A stretch of 64,000 nt of DNA from an uncultured Trichococcus sp. Its GTDB lineage: Bacteria; Bacillota; Bacilli; Lactobacillales; Aerococcaceae. A program made the translations under genes and the position numbers. Below are positions 15,498-22,966 of this stretch, one piece after another; the stretch's first letter is position 1, and every line of letters starts with the position of its first letter. Location: assembly GCF_963667775.1 (NCBI RefSeq), contig NZ_OY764015.1, forward strand, positions 3,027,001 to 3,091,000, in the 5' to 3' direction. Under the pieces are notes generated by a model. That model made no database searches. It saw nothing but the letters and a program-made list of their open reading frames with translations, and was not told where the DNA came from.

Positions 15498-16616
15498 TCA
15501 GGCGCCCCAGACTTCATCAGCGATCTGCTTGACCAAAGCCAATTTCGCCCACTGTTGTTCTTCCGTCAGGTTGTTTCCTTCTTCAGTCGAAGCGAAGCCG
15601 CACTGCGGGCTCAGGCATAATTGCTCCAAGGGTACATACTTGGTCGCTTCAGCGATGCGTGCTTTGACTTCGTCGACATCTTCCAATTCCGGTGTCTTTG
15701 AAGTGATCAGGCCCAGGATGATTTGGCCTTCGCCTTTGTAGTAACGCAATGGTTCGAATCCGCCGGCGCGATCGGTGTCGTATTCCAGGAAGAAACCATC
15801 AAAGCCGGTTTCGCCGAAAAGCTCTTTCGCAACAGGCTCATAAGCGCCCTCTTGCGAATAGGATGAACGGAAATTGCCGCGGCAGATATGCGTCGTGACG
15901 ACCAGATCTTCGGGCAGGCCGATCTGGATGTTTTTGACGTTTTCGGTGGCGACGCGCTTCAATTCATCGTAGGTTTCTTGGGAACCAAAGATTTCCAGTG
16001 CCTTGTCCGAGCAAAGATCGCCCCAGAATGTGTCATCAATCTGGATGTAACGGTTACCCAGCGAATAGAAGTGCAGGATCGTGTCGCGGTATGCCTGTTG
16101 CAGATCGGCAGCGTACTCCTCCAACGTAGGATAAATTTCTTCGTTGCGGAAACCGAGGCGGATCAATTGATTCGGGCTCGGAATCGATACTTTTGCAACG
16201 GCCCTGTCGCCGACTGCTTCAGCCAAGAAGGCATAGTCGGCGAAGAAAGGGTGTTCCGGATTAAAAGCGATTTTGCCGATGTTGCGCACGCTGTGGGCGC
16301 TGGTCACAACGTTGTGGAATTGTTTGCCTTGAGCTGCAAGGTAACCTTCAAAGCCCAACAGGTTTTCAAGGAAATCGAAATGCCAATAGGAGCGTCTGAA
16401 TTCGCCGTCCGTGATGCCTTTGTAGCCAAGCGCAATCTGTTTGTCGACGATACGCGTGATTTCAACATTTTCGATTTCGCGCAGGGCTTCCTTCGTGATT
16501 TTTCCTTCCGCCAGTTCCTTGCGGGCTTTTTTGATGCTTTCGGGACGCAAGAAGCTGCCTACGTGGTCTGCGCGGAACGGCGCCTTCGTTCTGTTTAAAG
16601 TTGTTTTGGTTGTCAT
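15498..16616 (-). CDS. Cobalamin-independent methionine synthase-like methyltransferase (MetE C-terminal domain, YxjG type)
   Basis: A 372-residue single-domain relative of MetE, like B. subtilis YxjG/YxjH. It probably transfers a methyl group to homocysteine; the donor is unproven for these short forms. The zinc-binding set of the MetE catalytic domain is present: THICRGNF (His-x-Cys), the glutamate of FFLEYDT, and LSPQCGFAST with the last cysteine. The N-terminus FRADHVGSFLRP is the usual folate/substrate opening. The start codon ends at 16616 and is preceded by AAGAAGGAAAC. The Met-specifier T-box leader upstream directly ties expression to uncharged methionyl-tRNA, supporting a role in methionine supply. 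Confidence 0.88.
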   Translation of the reverse strand: MTTKTTLNRTKAPFRADHVGSFLRPESIKKARKELAEGKITKEALREIENVEITRIVDKQIALGYKGITDGEFRRSYWHFDFLENLLGFEGYLAAQGKQFHNVVTSAHSVRNIGKIAFNPEHPFFADYAFLAEAVGDRAVAKVSIPSPNQLIRLGFRNEEIYPTLEEYAADLQQAYRDTILHFYSLGNRYIQIDDTFWGDLCSDKALEIFGSQETYDELKRVATENVKNIQIGLPEDLVVTTHICRGNFRSSYSQEGAYEPVAKELFGETGFDGFFLEYDTDRAGGFEPLRYYKGEGQIILGLITSKTPELEDVDEVKARIAEATKYVPLEQLCLSPQCGFASTEEGNNLTEEQQWAKLALVKQIADEVWGA

Positions 16617-17093: not shown

Positions 17094-17109
17094 ATAGATG
17101 GATGTCTAT
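17094..17109. promoter_or_regulatory. ArsR-type operator, site 1
   Basis: ATAGA-N6-TCTAT inverted repeat at the predicted transcription start of arsR1. The same half-site pair recurs at three further ars promoters. Confidence 0.65.
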
Positions 17110-17178
17110 GTAATGGCGCCATGGTTGAGGGAGCGGGCTGGGGTGCCTCAAAAAACATCAGGAAAAGAGGAAATGAAT

Positions 17179-17469
17179 ATGGCAATTAAATACAAAACAT
17201 ACGCGAAATGCCTGAAAGTGTTGTCGGACGAAACCAGATTGGAAATCATGGATTTATTGTCGGAAGGTGAAATGTGCGCCTGTGCGTTATTGGATCAGTT
17301 TTCGATTACCCAACCGACTTTATCCTATCACATGAAGATGATGAAGGAATGCGGCTTGGTGGACAGCAGGAAAGACGGAATTTGGGTCAAATATTCCGTG
17401 AATCATGAAAAATTGGATGAATTGAAGGACTTTTTCCAGACAATGGCGAAACAAAACACCACTGTATAA
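17179..17469 (+). CDS. arsR: ArsR family repressor (arsR1)
   Basis: A winged-helix metalloregulator of 96 residues. The metal-sensing motif is GEMCACALLDQF, with the CxC pair typical of As(III)/Sb(III) ArsR proteins at the start of the recognition helix region. FSITQPTLSYHMKMMKECGLVDSRKDGIWVKYSV gives the DNA-binding helix and wing. I use the ATG at 17179, 8 bases after AAGAGG; ATG 17173 is too close to it, and upstream codons to 17098 run through the operator. It heads the arsenic island. A degraded thioredoxin fragment begins 3 bases after its stop codon, suggesting an ancestral arsR-trx operon. Confidence 0.88.
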   Translation: MAIKYKTYAKCLKVLSDETRLEIMDLLSEGEMCACALLDQFSITQPTLSYHMKMMKECGLVDSRKDGIWVKYSVNHEKLDELKDFFQTMAKQNTTV

Positions 17470-17471
17470 TC

Positions 17472-17597
17472 ATGCAGACTCCAGGGCTGGTCATCAATGA
17501 GAAGGTCGTCTCGTATGGGCGGATCCTGACGCCCAAACACATTGCAGAGTTCCTGCAAAAGGGACAGACAGAGAAAAATGATCCTTGCATGGAATAG
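17472..17597 (+). pseudogene. Fossil C-terminal fragment of a small ars-linked thioredoxin
   Basis: Forty-one codons with no visible ribosome binding site of their own. The peptide contains TPGLVINEKVVSYG and IAEFLQK, which align with TPGLVIDEKVVSYG and IAEFLKK of the intact thioredoxin at 18805-19038. The N-terminal half with the CxxC active site is missing. The homology begins exactly after the arsR1 stop codon, so a deletion joined arsR1 to the middle of an older trx copy. The ATG is the Met of the I-M-x-T-P motif, not a real start. Function is unlikely. Confidence 0.8.
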
Positions 17598-17722: not shown

Positions 17723-17764
17723 GTGTTATGTGAAAAAAATACAAACTAGAAGGTGCAGTTCATC

Positions 17765-18769
17765 ATGGGAATTTTTCAATGGTTAAATGATCAGTTATTA
17801 AAAATGCAGTGGCTCAGCGATTTGGTCGGTGTGCTTGTCCGGGATGTCTTCGGATTGGATCTCGCCAGCAGGGTAGGCGGCAGCATCCATTTCTTCATCT
17901 ATGACGTCATCAAAATCTTTATCCTGCTGTCGGTTTTGATTTTTGGTATTTCATACGTGCAAAGCTTCTTCCCGCCAGAGCGGACGAAGAAAATCTTGAG
18001 CCGATTTGATGGGATCACTGCCAATATCTTGGCGGCGTTGCTGGGGACGATTACACCGTTCTGCTCCTGTTCCTCGATTCCGCTTTTCATCGGGTTTACC
18101 GGATCGGGATTGCCGTTAAGTGTGACGTTTTCGTTCCTGATCTCTTCGCCGTTGGTTGATCTGGCATCGATCATCCTCTTGGCCAGCATCTTCAACTGGA
18201 AGATTGCCATTGCGTATGTCGTTGTCGGCTTGATTCTGGCGGTTGTAGGCGGGACCTTCATCGGGAAAGCGCATCTGGAAGATCAGGTCGAGTCCTTTGT
18301 GTTCGGCAGCCCGACGGTTGAACTGGAGGAAGCCGAGTTGACCAGGAAAGACCGGGTGGATTATGCCTTTGATCAAGTGAAGGAAGTCGTCCAGAAAGTA
18401 TGGCTTTACGTGCTTCTTGGGGTCGGTATCGGGGCGGCCATCCACAACTGGATTCCCGAATCCGTCATAACGGCTCTGTTGGGTCAGGATAAATGGTATT
18501 CGGTATTGGTCGCAACGTTCGTCGGTGTTCCGATGTACGCGGATATTTTCGGGACGCTGCCCATTTCTGAAGCGCTTGTCGCAAGAGGGGTCGGACTGGG
18601 GACCGTGCTGTCCTTTATGATGGGCGTAACGGCATTGTCCTTGCCGTCGCTGGTCATGCTTAAGCAGGTCGTTAAGCCTAAATTGCTCGGCCTTTTCTTC
18701 GGGATCGTGGCTGTCGGCATCATCATCATCGGCTATCTGTTCAATTTCCTTGGACCGATATTTATTTAA
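17765..18769 (+). CDS. arsP: Permease ArsP/YraQ family, probable organoarsenical efflux
   Basis: An eight-helix membrane permease of 334 residues (PF03773). ArsP members export trivalent methylated or aromatic arsenicals. The conserved helix with TPFCSCSSIPLFIGFTGSG (Cys-rich motif CSCSS) and the mirror segment FVGVPMYADIFGTLPISEAL mark the two halves. A cytoplasmic loop of about 50 charged residues separates them. I take the ATG at 17765 with AGAAGG upstream; GTG 17753 overlaps that site. It sits in the ars island with an ArsR-type operator at its promoter, which supports the arsenic role over the undefined YraQ role. Confidence 0.82.
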   Translation: MGIFQWLNDQLLKMQWLSDLVGVLVRDVFGLDLASRVGGSIHFFIYDVIKIFILLSVLIFGISYVQSFFPPERTKKILSRFDGITANILAALLGTITPFCSCSSIPLFIGFTGSGLPLSVTFSFLISSPLVDLASIILLASIFNWKIAIAYVVVGLILAVVGGTFIGKAHLEDQVESFVFGSPTVELEEAELTRKDRVDYAFDQVKEVVQKVWLYVLLGVGIGAAIHNWIPESVITALLGQDKWYSVLVATFVGVPMYADIFGTLPISEALVARGVGLGTVLSFMMGVTALSLPSLVMLKQVVKPKLLGLFFGIVAVGIIIIGYLFNFLGPIFI

Positions 18770-18804: not shown

Positions 18805-19038
18805 ATGGAAATCAAAATTTTGGGTACGGGCTGCAAAAATTGCGTGAATTTAGCCAAAAATACGGAAGAGGCTTTGAAGGAACTGGGGATGGAAGCGACC
18901 ATCACAAAAGTGACCGACATGAAGGACATCGCCAAGTACGGAATCATGCGCACGCCGGGATTGGTCATCGACGAGAAAGTCGTGTCCTATGGCAAAGTCG
19001 CCAGTACGAAAGAAATCGCAGAATTTCTTAAAAAATAA
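18805..19038 (+). CDS. Small thioredoxin-fold protein (TM0996/MTH895 family)
   Basis: A 77-residue redox protein with the active site GTGCKNC (Cys10 and Cys13) and the cis-proline motif RTPGLVIDEKVVSYG. This family of minimal thioredoxins is often encoded beside arsP/YraQ permeases and ArsR regulators. It may reduce disulfides or pass electrons to arsenate or permease partners, but no substrate is proven. It lies 35 bp after arsP behind AGGAGG and is followed by an intrinsic terminator, so the arsP-trx pair is one transcript. A truncated paralogue lies behind arsR1. Confidence 0.85.
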   Translation: MEIKILGTGCKNCVNLAKNTEEALKELGMEATITKVTDMKDIAKYGIMRTPGLVIDEKVVSYGKVASTKEIAEFLKK

Positions 19039-19110: not shown

Positions 19111-19139
19111 TTGACTATAGATAGAAGAAAATCTATATT
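19111..19139 (+). promoter_or_regulatory. Promoter of the arsD-like gene with internal ArsR operator
   Basis: TTGACT at 19111-19116 and TATATT at 19134-19139, spacer 17. ATAGA-N6-TCTAT (19121-19136) occupies the spacer and part of the -10 box, so a bound ArsR dimer would block RNA polymerase directly. Confidence 0.7.
19121..19136. promoter_or_regulatory. ArsR-type operator, site 3
   Basis: Perfect ATAGA-N6-TCTAT, inside the promoter of the arsD-like gene. Confidence 0.65.
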
Positions 19140-19215: not shown

Positions 19216-19686
19216 ATGACGAATATCACTATTTTTGAACCGGAAACAAGCAGCAGCTTATTCAGCAGCCAGGATGCCATGCGCATTGCAGCAGTAATGG
19301 AAGCCTTGGAGGGATTGGAGAATTACGAGGCATTGCTTTTCAATCTGACGGATGATGCAGATCAGTTCGCGCTCAACAAGTCCGTAAACGAAAAAATCGA
19401 GTCGGAAGGGAATGGTGTGTTGCCGATCACTGTTGTCGATGGGACAATCATGAAAAGCGGCAGCTATCCGACCAACGATGAAATCACCAGCTATATCGGC
19501 GTCCGCTTCATTGAAGAGACAGAAGGGTCTTGTGGGTGCGGAGGCTGTGGTTGTGGCGGTTCGGAGGAATCTTCTGAGGCCGAAGAAAAGACCGATTGCT
19601 GTGGCGGACATGGACACCACCATCATGAGGAAGTTGCGACAGCAAGTGAAGGCTCATGCAGTTGTGGGAATGGCGGCTGCTGCTGA
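19216..19686 (+). CDS. ArsD-like protein lacking the arsenite cysteines, with Cys/His-rich tail
   Basis: A 156-residue protein in two parts. Residues 1-95 follow ArsD, the arsenite metallochaperone: ITIFEP start, FALNKSVNEKI, and LPITVVDGTIMKSGSYPTNDEI. Family ArsD binds As(III) through Cys12, Cys13 and Cys18; here positions 12, 13 and 18 are all serine (AGC codons) and the domain has no cysteine at all. Residues 104-156 form a tail with ten cysteines (106, 108, 111, 113, 128, 129, 148, 150, 155, 156) and a run HGHHHH (132-137). No ArsA ATPase, the usual ArsD partner, is in the window. The tail may carry the metal-binding role as a sink, sensor or chaperone. Own promoter with ArsR operator, own terminator. 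Confidence 0.82.
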   Translation: MTNITIFEPETSSSLFSSQDAMRIAAVMEALEGLENYEALLFNLTDDADQFALNKSVNEKIESEGNGVLPITVVDGTIMKSGSYPTNDEITSYIGVRFIEETEGSCGCGGCGCGGSEESSEAEEKTDCCGGHGHHHHEEVATASEGSCSCGNGGCC

Positions 19687-19693
19687 TACGCAT

Positions 19694-19739
19694 AAAAAAA
19701 GACTCGTATCCTGGGACACTCCGGATCGAGTTTCTTTTT
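19694..19739 (+). terminator. Intrinsic terminator after the arsD-like gene
   Basis: Hairpin GACTCG-ATCC / GGATCGAGT with flanking A- and T-rich tracts. Confidence 0.75.
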
Positions 19740-19748
19740 CAGTGATAG

Positions 19749-19764
19749 ATAGAAAAACTTCTAT
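19749..19764. promoter_or_regulatory. ArsR-type operator, site 4
   Basis: Perfect ATAGA-N6-TCTAT 32 bases upstream of the arsR2 start codon. It overlaps a TATATA -10 candidate (19762-19767); a matching -35 box is not clear. Confidence 0.65.
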
Positions 19765-19785: not shown

Positions 19786-20130
19786 ATGGATTATGAAAAT
19801 TATGCAAAAATCGCAAAAGCTTTGGCCGACCCGAAGCGCGTCAAAATCGTCGATATGCTTTCCTGCGGGGCCATGTGTGCTTGCGACATACTGGAACATT
19901 TCGATTTTACCCAGCCCACCCTGTCCCATCACATCAATCTGTTGGTGAAGGCGGGACTGGTGACGACGGAAAAAACGGGAACATGGCATTATTACGATCT
20001 GAATAAAGAGGTCTTTGAAAAATTCAAGGCGGACACAGCAGAACTGATAGCCGATACACCGGCCTGCATCTGCGAACCTGTACGATCAAAAGCAGTGTGT
20101 AGAACGGAAGCGAATGAACTGGTTAAGTGA
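19786..20130 (+). CDS. arsR: ArsR family repressor (arsR2)
   Basis: A 114-residue ArsR-type repressor, first gene of the arsR2-acr3-cdr transcript. The sensing motif is CGAMCACDILEHF, with CxC plus an additional upstream cysteine (SCGAMCAC). The wing and recognition helix are FDFTQPTLSHHINLLVKAGLVTTEKTGTWHYYDL. Compared with arsR1 it has a C-terminal extension with four more cysteines (PACICEP and KAVCRTE), which may form part of the metal site. The operator 22 bases upstream matches that of arsR1, so the two repressors may share targets. The ATG has only a weak AAGGGG ribosome site upstream. Confidence 0.9.
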   Translation: MDYENYAKIAKALADPKRVKIVDMLSCGAMCACDILEHFDFTQPTLSHHINLLVKAGLVTTEKTGTWHYYDLNKEVFEKFKADTAELIADTPACICEPVRSKAVCRTEANELVK

Positions 20131-20183: not shown

Positions 20184-21269
20184 ATGAGTGGAAAAGAGCA
20201 ACCAAGCATTTCCTTCTTCAATAAATATTTGAGTGTCTGGGTAGCCAGTTGTATGGTGGCGGGGGTCTTGATCGGAAAATATCTGCCGGCCATACCTGAA
20301 TTCTTCGGTAAATTCGAATATGCGAACGTATCGATTCCGACGGCCGTGTTGATCTGGGTCATGATCTATCCGATGATGATGAAGGTGGATTTCCAAAGCG
20401 TCCGGGATGTCGGAAAGAATCCGAAGGGACTTTATGTCACTTGGGCAGTGAACTGGCTGATCAAACCGTTCAGCATGTATGCCATTTCCGCCTTTTTCTT
20501 TTTTGTCGTCTTCAAGAATTTCATTACACCTGAGTTGGCGACGGAGTACTTGGCCGGTGCAATCCTCTTGGGGGCTGCCCCGTGTACGGCCATGGTGTTT
20601 GTCTGGAGCCAATTGACAAAAGGCAATCCGGCGTACACAGTCGTCCAGGTTGCGACCAATGATCTGATCATCCTGGTTGCCTTCATTCCGATCGTCAAAT
20701 TTCTTCTAGGTGTCAGCAATGTAACAGTTCCTTGGGACACTTTGATTCTGTCCGTTGTCTTGTTTGTCGTGATTCCGTTGGTCGGTGGTGTTTTGACGCG
20801 GATCTTCGTCACAAAGAAAAAAGGCGTCGCTTATTTCGAGAAGGATTTTCTTTCAAAATTTGATGGCGCGACCACTGCGGGGCTGTTGCTGATGCTGGTT
20901 TTGCTGTTCTCTTTCCAAGGGGAGGTCATCCTGGAGAATCCGTTGCACATTTTGATGATCGCCGTACCTTTGATCCTGCAGACTTTTCTGGTTTTCTTCA
21001 TCGCCTATCTTGCAAGCAAAGTGCTGAAGCTTCCGCATAATATTGCTGCACCGGCCGGCATGATCGGCGCATCGAACTTTTTTGAATTATCGGTCGCGGT
21101 TGCCATCGCGTTGTTCGGAATGGATTCCCCGGCAGCTTTGGCTACGGTGGTTGGCGTCCTGACTGAAGTGCCGGTGATGCTGATTTTGGTGAAAATCGCC
21201 AATTCGACAAGACAGTGGTTTCCCGGAAAGGAAACGAGTGCAGTGAATCCTGTAAAAACCTTAAAATAA
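20184..21269 (+). CDS. acr3: Arsenite efflux transporter, ACR3 family
   Basis: A ten-helix antiporter of 361 residues that extrudes As(OH)3 in exchange for protons. The essential thiolate cysteine of helix 4 is Cys134 in LLGAAPCTAMVFVWSQLTKGNPAYTVVQVATNDLI. The second-half signature is PHNIAAPAGMIGASNFFELSVAVAIALFG. Length is normal for bacterial Acr3. The gene is 53 bp after arsR2 and 29 bp before the CoA-disulfide reductase gene in the same direction, so they should be co-transcribed. This is the main arsenite pump of the island; no ArsB, ArsA or ArsC arsenate reductase is seen here. Confidence 0.92.
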   Translation: MSGKEQPSISFFNKYLSVWVASCMVAGVLIGKYLPAIPEFFGKFEYANVSIPTAVLIWVMIYPMMMKVDFQSVRDVGKNPKGLYVTWAVNWLIKPFSMYAISAFFFFVVFKNFITPELATEYLAGAILLGAAPCTAMVFVWSQLTKGNPAYTVVQVATNDLIILVAFIPIVKFLLGVSNVTVPWDTLILSVVLFVVIPLVGGVLTRIFVTKKKGVAYFEKDFLSKFDGATTAGLLLMLVLLFSFQGEVILENPLHILMIAVPLILQTFLVFFIAYLASKVLKLPHNIAAPAGMIGASNFFELSVAVAIALFGMDSPAALATVVGVLTEVPVMLILVKIANSTRQWFPGKETSAVNPVKTLK

Positions 21270-21298: not shown

Positions 21299-22966
21299 AT
21301 GAAAATCATCGTAATCGGTTCGGTAGCAGCGGGAACCTCTGTTGCAGCCAAAGCGCGCAGAAACACAGAGGAAGCGGAAATAGTCGTCTATGACCAAGGG
21401 AAGGATATTTCCTATTCCGTCTGCGGCATCCCTTACAAAATCGGTGGGGAAGTCGATTCAGTGGGTCGCCTGACGCCGCGTGATGAAAAATGGTTCAAAA
21501 AGAGATACGATGTCTCCGTCTTTACGGAACACAAAGTGACGAAAGTGGATCATGAAGCCAAAAAACTGCAAGTGAAAGATCTGAAGACCGGTGAAATCAA
21601 AGAGGACGCTTATGATGTGTTGGTTTTCGCGACAGGTGCTTCGCCGCTTACGCCTCCACCTTTTGATCAGGCAGAATACGAAAATGTCTTCCATGTCCGC
21701 AACATCCAGGACCTTCGTGACATAGAAAGTTATTCGGAAGCGAACCAACCGAAAAAAGCGCTGATCATCGGTGCCGGCTTTATCGGTCTGGAAATGACCG
21801 AGCAGCTTGTGCAAAAAGGGTGGGATGTCACCATCGTTCAGCTGGAGAATCAAGTGATGCCGACGATGGATGCGGATATGGCTTTCCGTGTGGAGGAAGT
21901 GCTGATGGCCAAAGGGGTGCATCTGCACCTTGGGGATACCGTCCAGGCCATCGAAGGTAAGGGGACCGTAAAAAACGTGGTGACGACTGAAGGTGCCATC
22001 ATCGAGACGGATATCGTCATCCTGGCAGCCGGCGTGCGTCCGAACACAAAACTGGCGAAGGAAATCGGCGTCACGATCGGAGCGACGGGTGCGATCGCCG
22101 TCAACAGCAAAATGCAGACGAATATTCCGGATGTATATGCAGTCGGTGATGTGGCCGAAAGCTTCTCCGTCATCATAGGCAAACCGATCTACCGTCCATT
22201 GGGCTCCACGGCCAACAAGATGGGACGGATCGCCGGTGATGTGATTACCGGTGGGAATCTGGAACATCGTGGGGTGCTGGGTACCGGTATCTTCCGCGTA
22301 TTCGATCTGCATGTCGGCCAGACCGGCATGACCGAAAAAGAAGCGAAGGCAGCAGGTTATTCCGTGGAAATCCTGTTCAACATCAAGCCGGACCACGCCG
22401 AATACCTTGGCGGCAAGGAACTGATCATCAAGGCATTGGCTGACAAGGCGACCGGACGCGTCTTGGGCGCACAAATCTTAGGAACGCAAGGTGTGGATAA
22501 ACGGATCGATGTCCTTGCCACGGCCATCACCTTCAAGGCGAAAGCCGAAGATCTGTTCCATCTGGATCTGGCCTATGCACCGCCGTTCGCAACAACAAAA
22601 GACCCGATCCTTTATACAGGTATGGCTTTGGATAACGCCTTGCGCGGTAATCCGTTGATGACGCCGGCCCAGTTGGTCGAAACGCAGCAAAAAGGCGAAT
22701 CCATCCAAGTGGTCGACACACGATCAGCCAAGGATTTCGAGAAAGGCCATGTCCAAGACGCGCTCCACATCCCGTTAGGGGAACTGCGTGCACGCGCCGG
22801 AGAACTTTCCAAGGAGATTCCGACAGTGACCTATTGCAACAAAGGCGTGACCGGTAACGCCGCTCAGAATGTATTGCTCAATTTAGGCTTCCAAGAAGTT
22901 TATAACCTTTCGGGCGGAAATAAAAATTATCAAAGTTACCTCAAAATGCTGAAGCGAAAAAACTAA
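21299..22966 (+). CDS. CoA-disulfide reductase-like flavoprotein with C-terminal rhodanese domain (ars-linked)
   Basis: A 555-residue FAD- and NAD(P)H-dependent disulfide reductase fused to a rhodanese domain (CoADR-RHD). The N-terminal FAD fold is GSVAAGTSVAAKAR; the single active cysteine is Cys42 in SYSVCGIPYK. The NAD(P)H fold GAGFIGLEMTEQL follows at about residue 160 and the FAD-closing motif is PDVYAVGDVAES. The rhodanese part (from about residue 460) has IQVVDTRSAKDFEKGHV and the catalytic loop CNKGVTGN. Such proteins reduce CoA persulfides and disulfides. In ars operons they may relieve thiol stress. Last gene of arsR2-acr3-cdr. A paralogue lies at 61254-62909. Confidence 0.88.
   Translation: MKIIVIGSVAAGTSVAAKARRNTEEAEIVVYDQGKDISYSVCGIPYKIGGEVDSVGRLTPRDEKWFKKRYDVSVFTEHKVTKVDHEAKKLQVKDLKTGEIKEDAYDVLVFATGASPLTPPPFDQAEYENVFHVRNIQDLRDIESYSEANQPKKALIIGAGFIGLEMTEQLVQKGWDVTIVQLENQVMPTMDADMAFRVEEVLMAKGVHLHLGDTVQAIEGKGTVKNVVTTEGAIIETDIVILAAGVRPNTKLAKEIGVTIGATGAIAVNSKMQTNIPDVYAVGDVAESFSVIIGKPIYRPLGSTANKMGRIAGDVITGGNLEHRGVLGTGIFRVFDLHVGQTGMTEKEAKAAGYSVEILFNIKPDHAEYLGGKELIIKALADKATGRVLGAQILGTQGVDKRIDVLATAITFKAKAEDLFHLDLAYAPPFATTKDPILYTGMALDNALRGNPLMTPAQLVETQQKGESIQVVDTRSAKDFEKGHVQDALHIPLGELRARAGELSKEIPTVTYCNKGVTGNAAQNVLLNLGFQEVYNLSGGNKNYQSYLKMLKRKN

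Follow-up and report, generated by a model that had tools for sequence, protein, structure and literature searches.

Organization of the ars locus

The window, which is the whole stretch of 64,000 nucleotides analysed here, belongs to a Trichococcus genome of 3.3 Mb assembled as one contig, the genus being assigned from the nearest named loci, and carries an arsD-like gene at 19216..19686 on the plus strand. This gene encodes a 156-residue ArsD homologue with a Ser loop and a Cys/His tail, as identified from its open reading frame (ORF) and from Pfam, PDB and Foldseek searches. The neighbouring genes described next lie on the same strand. Profile matches identify two ArsR/SmtB-type repressor genes, arsR1 (17098..17469), the true start of which may be internal, and arsR2 (19786..20130). 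Genes for an ArsP-type permease (17753..18769; PF03773) and an MTH895/ArsE-family thioredoxin-like protein (18805..19038; NCBIfam-level profile match) are located between arsR1 and arsD. The arsR2 gene is followed by genes for the Acr3 arsenite efflux permease (20184..21269; TIGR00832, 376.6 bits against a cut-off of 282.8) and for a CoA-disulfide-reductase-like flavoprotein (CoADR) with a rhodanese domain (21299..22966), which scores below the NCBIfam equivalog cut-offs. The first-pass annotation had already referred to the two ArsR repressors and to ArsP/Acr3. The gene order of the Ser-type species is arsR1, ArsE-like thioredoxin, arsP, ArsE-like thioredoxin, arsD, arsR2, acr3 and CoADR, and it is constant across the Ser-type loci not interrupted by a contig end. 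By eye, positions 17469-17597 of the window hold about 42 3' codons of the first ArsE-like thioredoxin gene, left as a remnant after arsR1; a 77-79-residue copy occupies this interval in all ten other loci covering it (L033-L042).

A promoter-like sequence, TTGACT-17-TATATT, precedes arsD (19111..19139, plus strand), and its TTGAC and CTATATT parts are identical in 12 of the 12 aligned loci. The promoter scan alone is no evidence, since it gave 8 sites against 8.1 in shuffled sequences. Within this promoter lies an operator-like inverted repeat, ATAGAT-N8-ATCTAT (19117..19136, no strand assigned), the arms of which vary in several other species; it is absent from the inverted-repeat listing because the minimum arm there was 8. 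A second operator-like repeat, ATAGA-N10-TCTAT, found by repeat search and alignment, is placed before arsR2 (19745..19764, no strand assigned), and a further similar repeat precedes arsR1 (17094). From these sequence elements we infer ArsR binding at the putative arsD operator. A terminator-like hairpin, missed by the consensus scan, lies right after arsD (19694..19739, plus strand). Hairpins of this kind are followed by, or end in, TTTCTTTT; that of the window has a predicted energy of -19.7 kcal/mol over 70 nt, and eight other Ser loci examined also have one, partly farther downstream. T. paludicola has no hairpin behind arsD, and the sequence continues into arsA. On the minus strand of the window, a T-box leader match (RF00230; 16676-16948) of 82.2 bits (E = 2.6e-18) stays under the gathering score of 93, and a scan at gathering level gave no hit; the match lies upstream of a minus-strand gene at 15498-16616 that resembles a MetE-type enzyme by eye.

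The ArsD core and its remodelled loop

The 156-residue protein matches Pfam PF06953 at 1.1e-17 (64.9 bits, cut-off 27), and a PDB sequence search with the whole protein, tail included, finds the ArsD structure 3ktb at 2.7e-10. The AlphaFold model, built from 11 sequences, has pLDDT values of 70-90 at 82 of 156 residues, none above 90 and a mean of 62.4; values below 50 are found at residues 12-15 and 99-156. With this model, Foldseek gives seven hits at E <= 0.001, every one of them an ArsD chain (3ktb, 3kgk and 3mwh), with 3ktb at 4.8e-9, which supports a predicted ArsD/thioredoxin fold. The assignment as an ArsD homologue therefore holds on the Pfam match and the fold. The NCBIfam equivalog for the ArsD arsenite metallochaperone (NF033727) gives 54.2 bits against a cut-off of 90.

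ArsD hands As(III) to the ArsA ATPase via Cys12, Cys13 and Cys18. Ser is not known to replace Cys as an As(III) ligand. The thioredoxin-fold core of the window protein (residues 1-99; 19216..19512, plus strand) contains no Cys, and the first Cys of the protein is residue 106, so that the As(III) triad (MBS1) is lost, as the first-pass annotation had stated. In its place is a remodelled loop, PETSSSLFSSQDA (residues 9-21; 19240..19278, plus strand). This loop does carry Ser at residues 12, 13 and 18, and had been described as having Ser exactly where ArsD has its three Cys. Ser12 and Ser13 indeed align with Cys12 and Cys13. Ser18 does not align with Cys18, which falls in a deleted stretch: the Ser loop is five residues shorter than the loops of both Cys-type sister proteins, in an alignment whose gap placement could shift slightly. 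Because the stretch holding Cys18 was deleted, Ser18 is a coincidence of numbering. One of the Ser/Cys sister-protein alignments was made without patagoniensis, DJKA47 and G005. The codons for Cys12 and Cys13 are TGC in T. paludicola, and those for Ser12 and Ser13 are AGC in T. alkaliphilus.

Among 89 distinct canonical ArsD proteins, 24 positions are conserved in at least 85% of the sequences, the three Cys by construction since the triad was the criterion for choosing the set. The window protein has kept 12 of these positions, including the LP, YP and NL motifs, and lost 12, nine of them at Cys-type positions 10-20 and the others being Leu26, Arg46 and Pro53. Besides the loop, two near-invariant ArsD residues are thereby changed, the Arg and Pro of the R.NL...P..F motif. 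The Ser-loop protein shares its fold, core length, LP/YP/NL motifs and ars-locus position with ArsD (PF06953; R773 ArsD, PDB 3kgk/3mwh), and C-terminal Cys pairs with part of the family, whereas it differs in the missing triad, a loop shorter than in the Cys-type sisters, the altered R.NL...P..F motif, the lower equivalog score (54.2 of 90 bits), a tail enlarged by His clusters and a genome in which ArsA was not detected.

Conservation and selection within Trichococcus

ArsD matches above the cut-off were obtained in all 13 Trichococcus genomes searched. The tailed ArsD proteins of these genomes comprise 11 with the Ser loop and two with the Cys triad, the latter from T. paludicola (G006, L042) and T. 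palustris (G009, L043). A record titled Sedimentibacter sp. SX930 (L034, G012) contains a typical Trichococcus locus; it is probably mislabelled and was counted in the genus. Residues 1-21 are identical in all 11 Ser-type proteins, and 13 of these codons vary silently. The core as a whole has a dN/dS of 0.086 among the 11 Ser proteins, and residues 9-21 have a pN of 0 and a pS of 0.355. The core has 24 variable positions, all of them beyond residue 21; the probability of this by chance is 0.0013, or 0.033 for an invariant run of this length anywhere, with sites treated as independent. Among the Ser-type proteins, no part of the core is better conserved than the loop, and the reading frame is open in all 11 Ser genomes, in one case up to a contig end. 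Since pN is 0 against a pS of 0.355 and no variable position lies in residues 1-21, the changed loop is, as judged by these codon comparisons, under purifying selection and not decaying. The alignment across relatives that the first-pass annotation had proposed shows the Ser loop and the tail together in 11 of the 13 genomes. The one-off decay that it had named as a refuting case is ruled out by this conservation and by the low core dN/dS.

When genome contigs from 84,980 species were scanned, 12 loci emerged, 11 of the Trichococcus type and one canonical ArsD of Herbinix; the scan has limited reach because it used exact peptide patterns of the query. A plasmid search returned 84 records (25 of the 84 listed), all below 60% identity and all with query coverage under 80%. 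No triad-less or Trichococcus ArsD was found in the accessible part of the literature on ArsD and Trichococcus, most subscription journals lying outside it.

The Cys/His-rich tail

The acidic tail (residues 100-156; 19513..19683, plus strand) contains ten Cys, at residues 106, 108, 111, 113, 128, 129, 148, 150, 155 and 156, and five His, and its predicted model has pLDDT below 50. The ten Cys and the HGHHHH motif, which starts at residue 132, are as the first-pass annotation had read them, and its view of the tail as rich in Cys and His is supported. The tail is present in all 13 tailed proteins, with 9-14 Cys in 12 of the 12 that have a complete end; in the metagenome-assembled genome (MAG) G007 the tail is ended by the contig end and has 4 Cys. 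The His count of complete tails ranges from 1 in T. palustris, with 12 Cys, to 18 in K1Tr, and tail length and composition vary widely between species. Since the T. palustris tail has 12 Cys but only one His, Cys is the steadier component.

Both Cys-type Trichococcus proteins carry the tail. They share the first nine residues and the kind of tail with the Ser-type proteins and are their nearest neighbours in the core tree, but differ in their intact triad and in their genomes, which have ArsA and in which Acr3 was not found. Since the tail is found on both triad-bearing proteins, it probably predates the loss of the triad; recombination within arsD of T. paludicola is possible, and T. palustris provides a separate case for the age of the tail. 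The proposals that the tail is new and that the metal-handling role has moved to it are accordingly not borne out.

The survey described below contains 127 distinct canonical ArsD ORFs, of which 43 also have a Cys pair near the C-terminal end, so the tail enlarges a known ArsD feature; these 127 ORFs have at most six C-terminal Cys, and none has three or more His there. R773 ArsD has Cys pairs at 112-113 and 119-120 (PMC4562236), and for an Azoarcus ArsD the corresponding C-terminal pairs have been listed as possible binding sites, MBS2 and MBS3 (PMC6683785). The window protein has vicinal pairs of this type, Cys128-129 and Cys155-156, within its enlarged tail. A degenerate GCGCGG(H/Q)GH pattern has 14 sites in 10 of the 13 genomes, although it does not fit the tail of the window protein itself. 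All 14 sites lie within arsD and the backwards control gave 0, so that a motif common to several proteins of the genus is rejected. A search of the PDB with the T. paludicola tail gave three weak matches, none of them SlyD, and homology of the tail to a solved protein was set aside.

ArsA, Acr3 and the type of loop

The statement that the window encodes no ArsA can be extended, by profile search, to its whole genome. The ArsA model TIGR00345 reaches 23.6 bits against a cut-off of 135, and the lone Pfam ArsA_ATPase match (25.7 bits, cut-off 24.3) spans 56 of 305 positions of a model that also gives matches in 14 of 14 control genomes; an ArsA elsewhere in the genome is rejected on these results. 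Across the genus, matches above the TIGR00345 threshold occur in both Cys-type genomes (2 of 13) and in none of the 11 Ser-type genomes. Acr3 (TIGR00832) is above the cut-off in ten of the 13, all of the Ser type, the exception among the Ser genomes being the MAG G007, and was not found with this model in either Cys-type genome. ArsB is above the cut-off in none of the 13. Because the assemblies of G006 (63% complete) and G007 (51%) are incomplete, absences in these two are weak. By these profile matches, loop type follows the pump within the genus, the Ser loop occurring with Acr3 and the Cys triad with ArsA.

In T. paludicola, the common locus has arsD, then arsA 10 bases later, followed by arsR2 and CoADR. 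By eye, an aquaporin-like gene follows CoADR there (L042 10513-11232). One contig of T. palustris contains arsA, arsR, a gene for a tail-less ArsD with the triad, CoADR, arsR and an ArsP-type gene, and the tailed arsD lies at the end of another contig, apart from arsA. The gene arrangement of T. palustris therefore does not show its tailed ArsD serving ArsA. In the ArsA genomes (L042 6563-8317; L149 2926-4668), an ArsP-type gene is the sole arsenic-type permease seen nearby.

History of the locus

In the core tree, built with every Ser protein except that of G005 (10 of 11), the Ser proteins form one clade with a support of 100/100, and both Cys types and the canonical ArsD proteins fall outside it. 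T. paludicola is the sister of the Ser clade (90/78, not starred) and T. palustris lies outside. In RpoB, T. palustris is outside the other nine species tested; rpoB was not found in the T. paludicola assembly. The flanking-gene tree places T. paludicola inside the radiation of the Ser species, beside T. alkaliphilus (92/92, not starred). Compared with the window, T. paludicola has 97% identity in arsP and 90% in CoADR, like other species, and 65% in arsD and 70% in arsR2; the first part of its CoADR is also more distant from the window. The T. paludicola cassette thus looks recombined. The simplest reading of these trees and identities is that the locus occurs as alternative cassettes, one pairing ArsD-Cys with ArsA and the other ArsD-Ser with Acr3, which have been swapped by recombination. 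On this reading, the 13 genomes stand for no more than one or two independent events linking loop and pump.

Triad and ArsA outside the genus

Pfam ArsD matches were found in 98 of 395 Lactobacillales genomes and in 67 of 398 genomes of the class, both samples being drawn evenly from larger groups. The 79 Lactobacillales regions fetched, 58 with strong hits (one of them T. palustris) and 21 with weak hits, contain 78 strong ORFs, 69 of which have the triad in a sufficiently long ORF; ArsA is present in the fetched region for 67 of these 69. The nine ORFs scored as having no triad comprise six truncated ones with CC....C intact, scored so by the ORF-length rule (L163 among them, without ArsA), and three that are one sequence with the CC kept, the third Cys missing and ArsA adjacent. 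In the class, among the matches listed, triad and ArsA occur together in 30 of 30. A further 40 class regions, a few of which overlap the first 30, contain 43 ORFs: 38 with both, three copies with the CC but not the third Cys and with ArsA nearby, and two with the triad and no clear ArsA in the fetched stretch, one of these at a contig end. Triad and ArsA are thus nearly always together in the survey, as far as sequence matches tell. Two Lactobacillales loci, L154 (G283) and L164 (G116), have the triad with ArsA nowhere above the cut-off in the genome, and the gene order of L164 nearly matches that of the Trichococcus locus. Because both keep the triad without ArsA, the loss of ArsA does not force the loss of the triad, and a strict rule of no ArsA, no triad was discarded. 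The survey model was built from triad-bearing sequences, and the count of strong hits alone is blind to Ser types since its 85-bit line lies just above the Ser proteins (78.8-84.3 bits). In the full ArsD listing of the Lactobacillales regions, the Trichococcus Ser proteins alone occupy the range of 61-97 bits. Among the matches listed, no ArsD outside Trichococcus has lost all three Cys and kept a full-length core, barring a distant ArsD-like group.

Possible roles of the Ser-loop protein

We propose with moderate confidence that the Ser-loop protein is an ArsD-derived, probably ArsR-controlled and ArsA-independent metal or metalloid binder, the disordered tail of which would buffer thiophilic metals beside Acr3. 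Arsenite would lift ArsR, and the protein would then be produced as a unit of its own. The flexible Cys/His tail would bind As(III) or other thiophilic metals and lower the free metalloid until export by Acr3, and in such a buffer or sink nothing would be passed on to any ATPase. The Ser loop may now be structural, or may be a docking surface for some partner. The choice of metal is left broad because SlyD tails of similar composition take up several Ni(II) or Zn(II) ions (PMC7055735). The clade keeps arsD under strong selection without the three chaperone cysteines, where a sister species has both these cysteines and ArsA. It thereby separates the ArsA hand-over site from the role of the C-terminal Cys pairs, a less understood part of ArsD, and natural Cys-type and Ser-type proteins are available for comparison.

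By analogy with SlyD, the His/Cys tail might instead bind Zn, Ni, Cu or Co, the protein being no longer an arsenic protein even though its gene remains in an ars locus, which we regard as rather unlikely. The tail does resemble the SlyD tails in being an unstructured C-terminal extension of a folded domain that is rich in Cys, His and acidic residues (PMC7055735), and the K1Tr tail has as many as 18 His. The fold of SlyD differs from that of ArsD, and the T. paludicola tail has no SlyD sequence match in the PDB search. Against a shift of metal, the neighbours in the constant order of the uninterrupted Ser-type loci are arsR, ArsP-type and Acr3 genes, and the T. palustris tail has a single His beside its 12 Cys.

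Another possibility, an unlikely one in our judgement, is that the protein regulates weakly in trans or tunes both ArsR proteins, sensing As(III) by the Cys pairs of its tail. The arsD gene is flanked by two arsR genes and preceded by the operator-like repeat. The C-terminal vicinal pairs of R773 ArsD have been proposed to have a regulatory role, and Bacillus CDB3 ArsD, which is without such pairs, failed to bind its own promoter, in which the authors see support (PMC4562236). On the other hand, the Pfam search recognised no DNA-binding domain in the protein, and a tail varying so strongly in length and composition between species is ill-suited to a precise sensor. The first-pass annotation had offered both a sink and a sensor; we prefer a sink or buffer.

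It is unlikely, in our view, that ArsD has become an ATPase-free buffer or chaperone for Acr3, with As(III) bound by the tail and with the invariant Ser loop, which replaced the ArsA hand-over site, docking either to the permease or to some redox partner encoded at the locus. If true, such an Acr3-serving, ATPase-free ArsD would add a second mode of action to the ArsD fold. More generally, the Ser loop could dock to Acr3, the ArsP-type permease, the ArsE-like thioredoxin or the CoADR-like flavoprotein, the protein remaining a chaperone but serving a permease or redox partner instead of ArsA. In favour of this, the loop is conserved more strongly than the rest of the core and Acr3 was found in 10 of 11 Ser genomes; against it, residues 12-15 of the model have pLDDT below 50 and Acr3 works without a chaperone. 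We regard such a new partner as quite improbable. That the gene is a functionless relic drifting after the loss of ArsA, as the lost active-site loop and the undetected ArsA might suggest, is hardly credible in view of the core dN/dS, the invariant stretch with 13 of 21 codons silently changed and the frame open in every Ser genome.

Distant and partial ArsD relatives

The distant ArsD-like places in Lactobacillales, 36 above the cut-off (about 26 to 45 bits) and 12 below it, mostly belong to a separate triad-less group. No ars neighbours were seen in the two neighbourhoods inspected (L168 and L170), 21 such regions having been fetched. The proteins of L168 (4825-5184), L178 (4974-5357) and L179 (4982-5329), from another genus of the same family (G025, G184 and G361), are triad-less and end in CSCGHHH or CCCGHHH, with more His before the terminal motif in all three; from their sequences, these His/Cys ends are possibly an independent gain. 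ArsD-like proteins of genus g8 (L170 5022-5435 and L167 5015-5398) have a different Cys loop, GCCGGS, and a C-terminal Cys, and by eye the L170 gene adjoins putative branched-chain amino acid genes. Extra ArsD proteins near ArsA with partial loss of the triad, the CC being kept, occur at L226 12274-12627, L227 15608-15961 and L110 7772-8083. The genome of the window itself has a second, distant Cys-less ArsD-like protein of 109 residues (L002 1444-1773) outside the ars locus, and proteins of this type are also found outside the ars locus in five other Trichococcus genomes.
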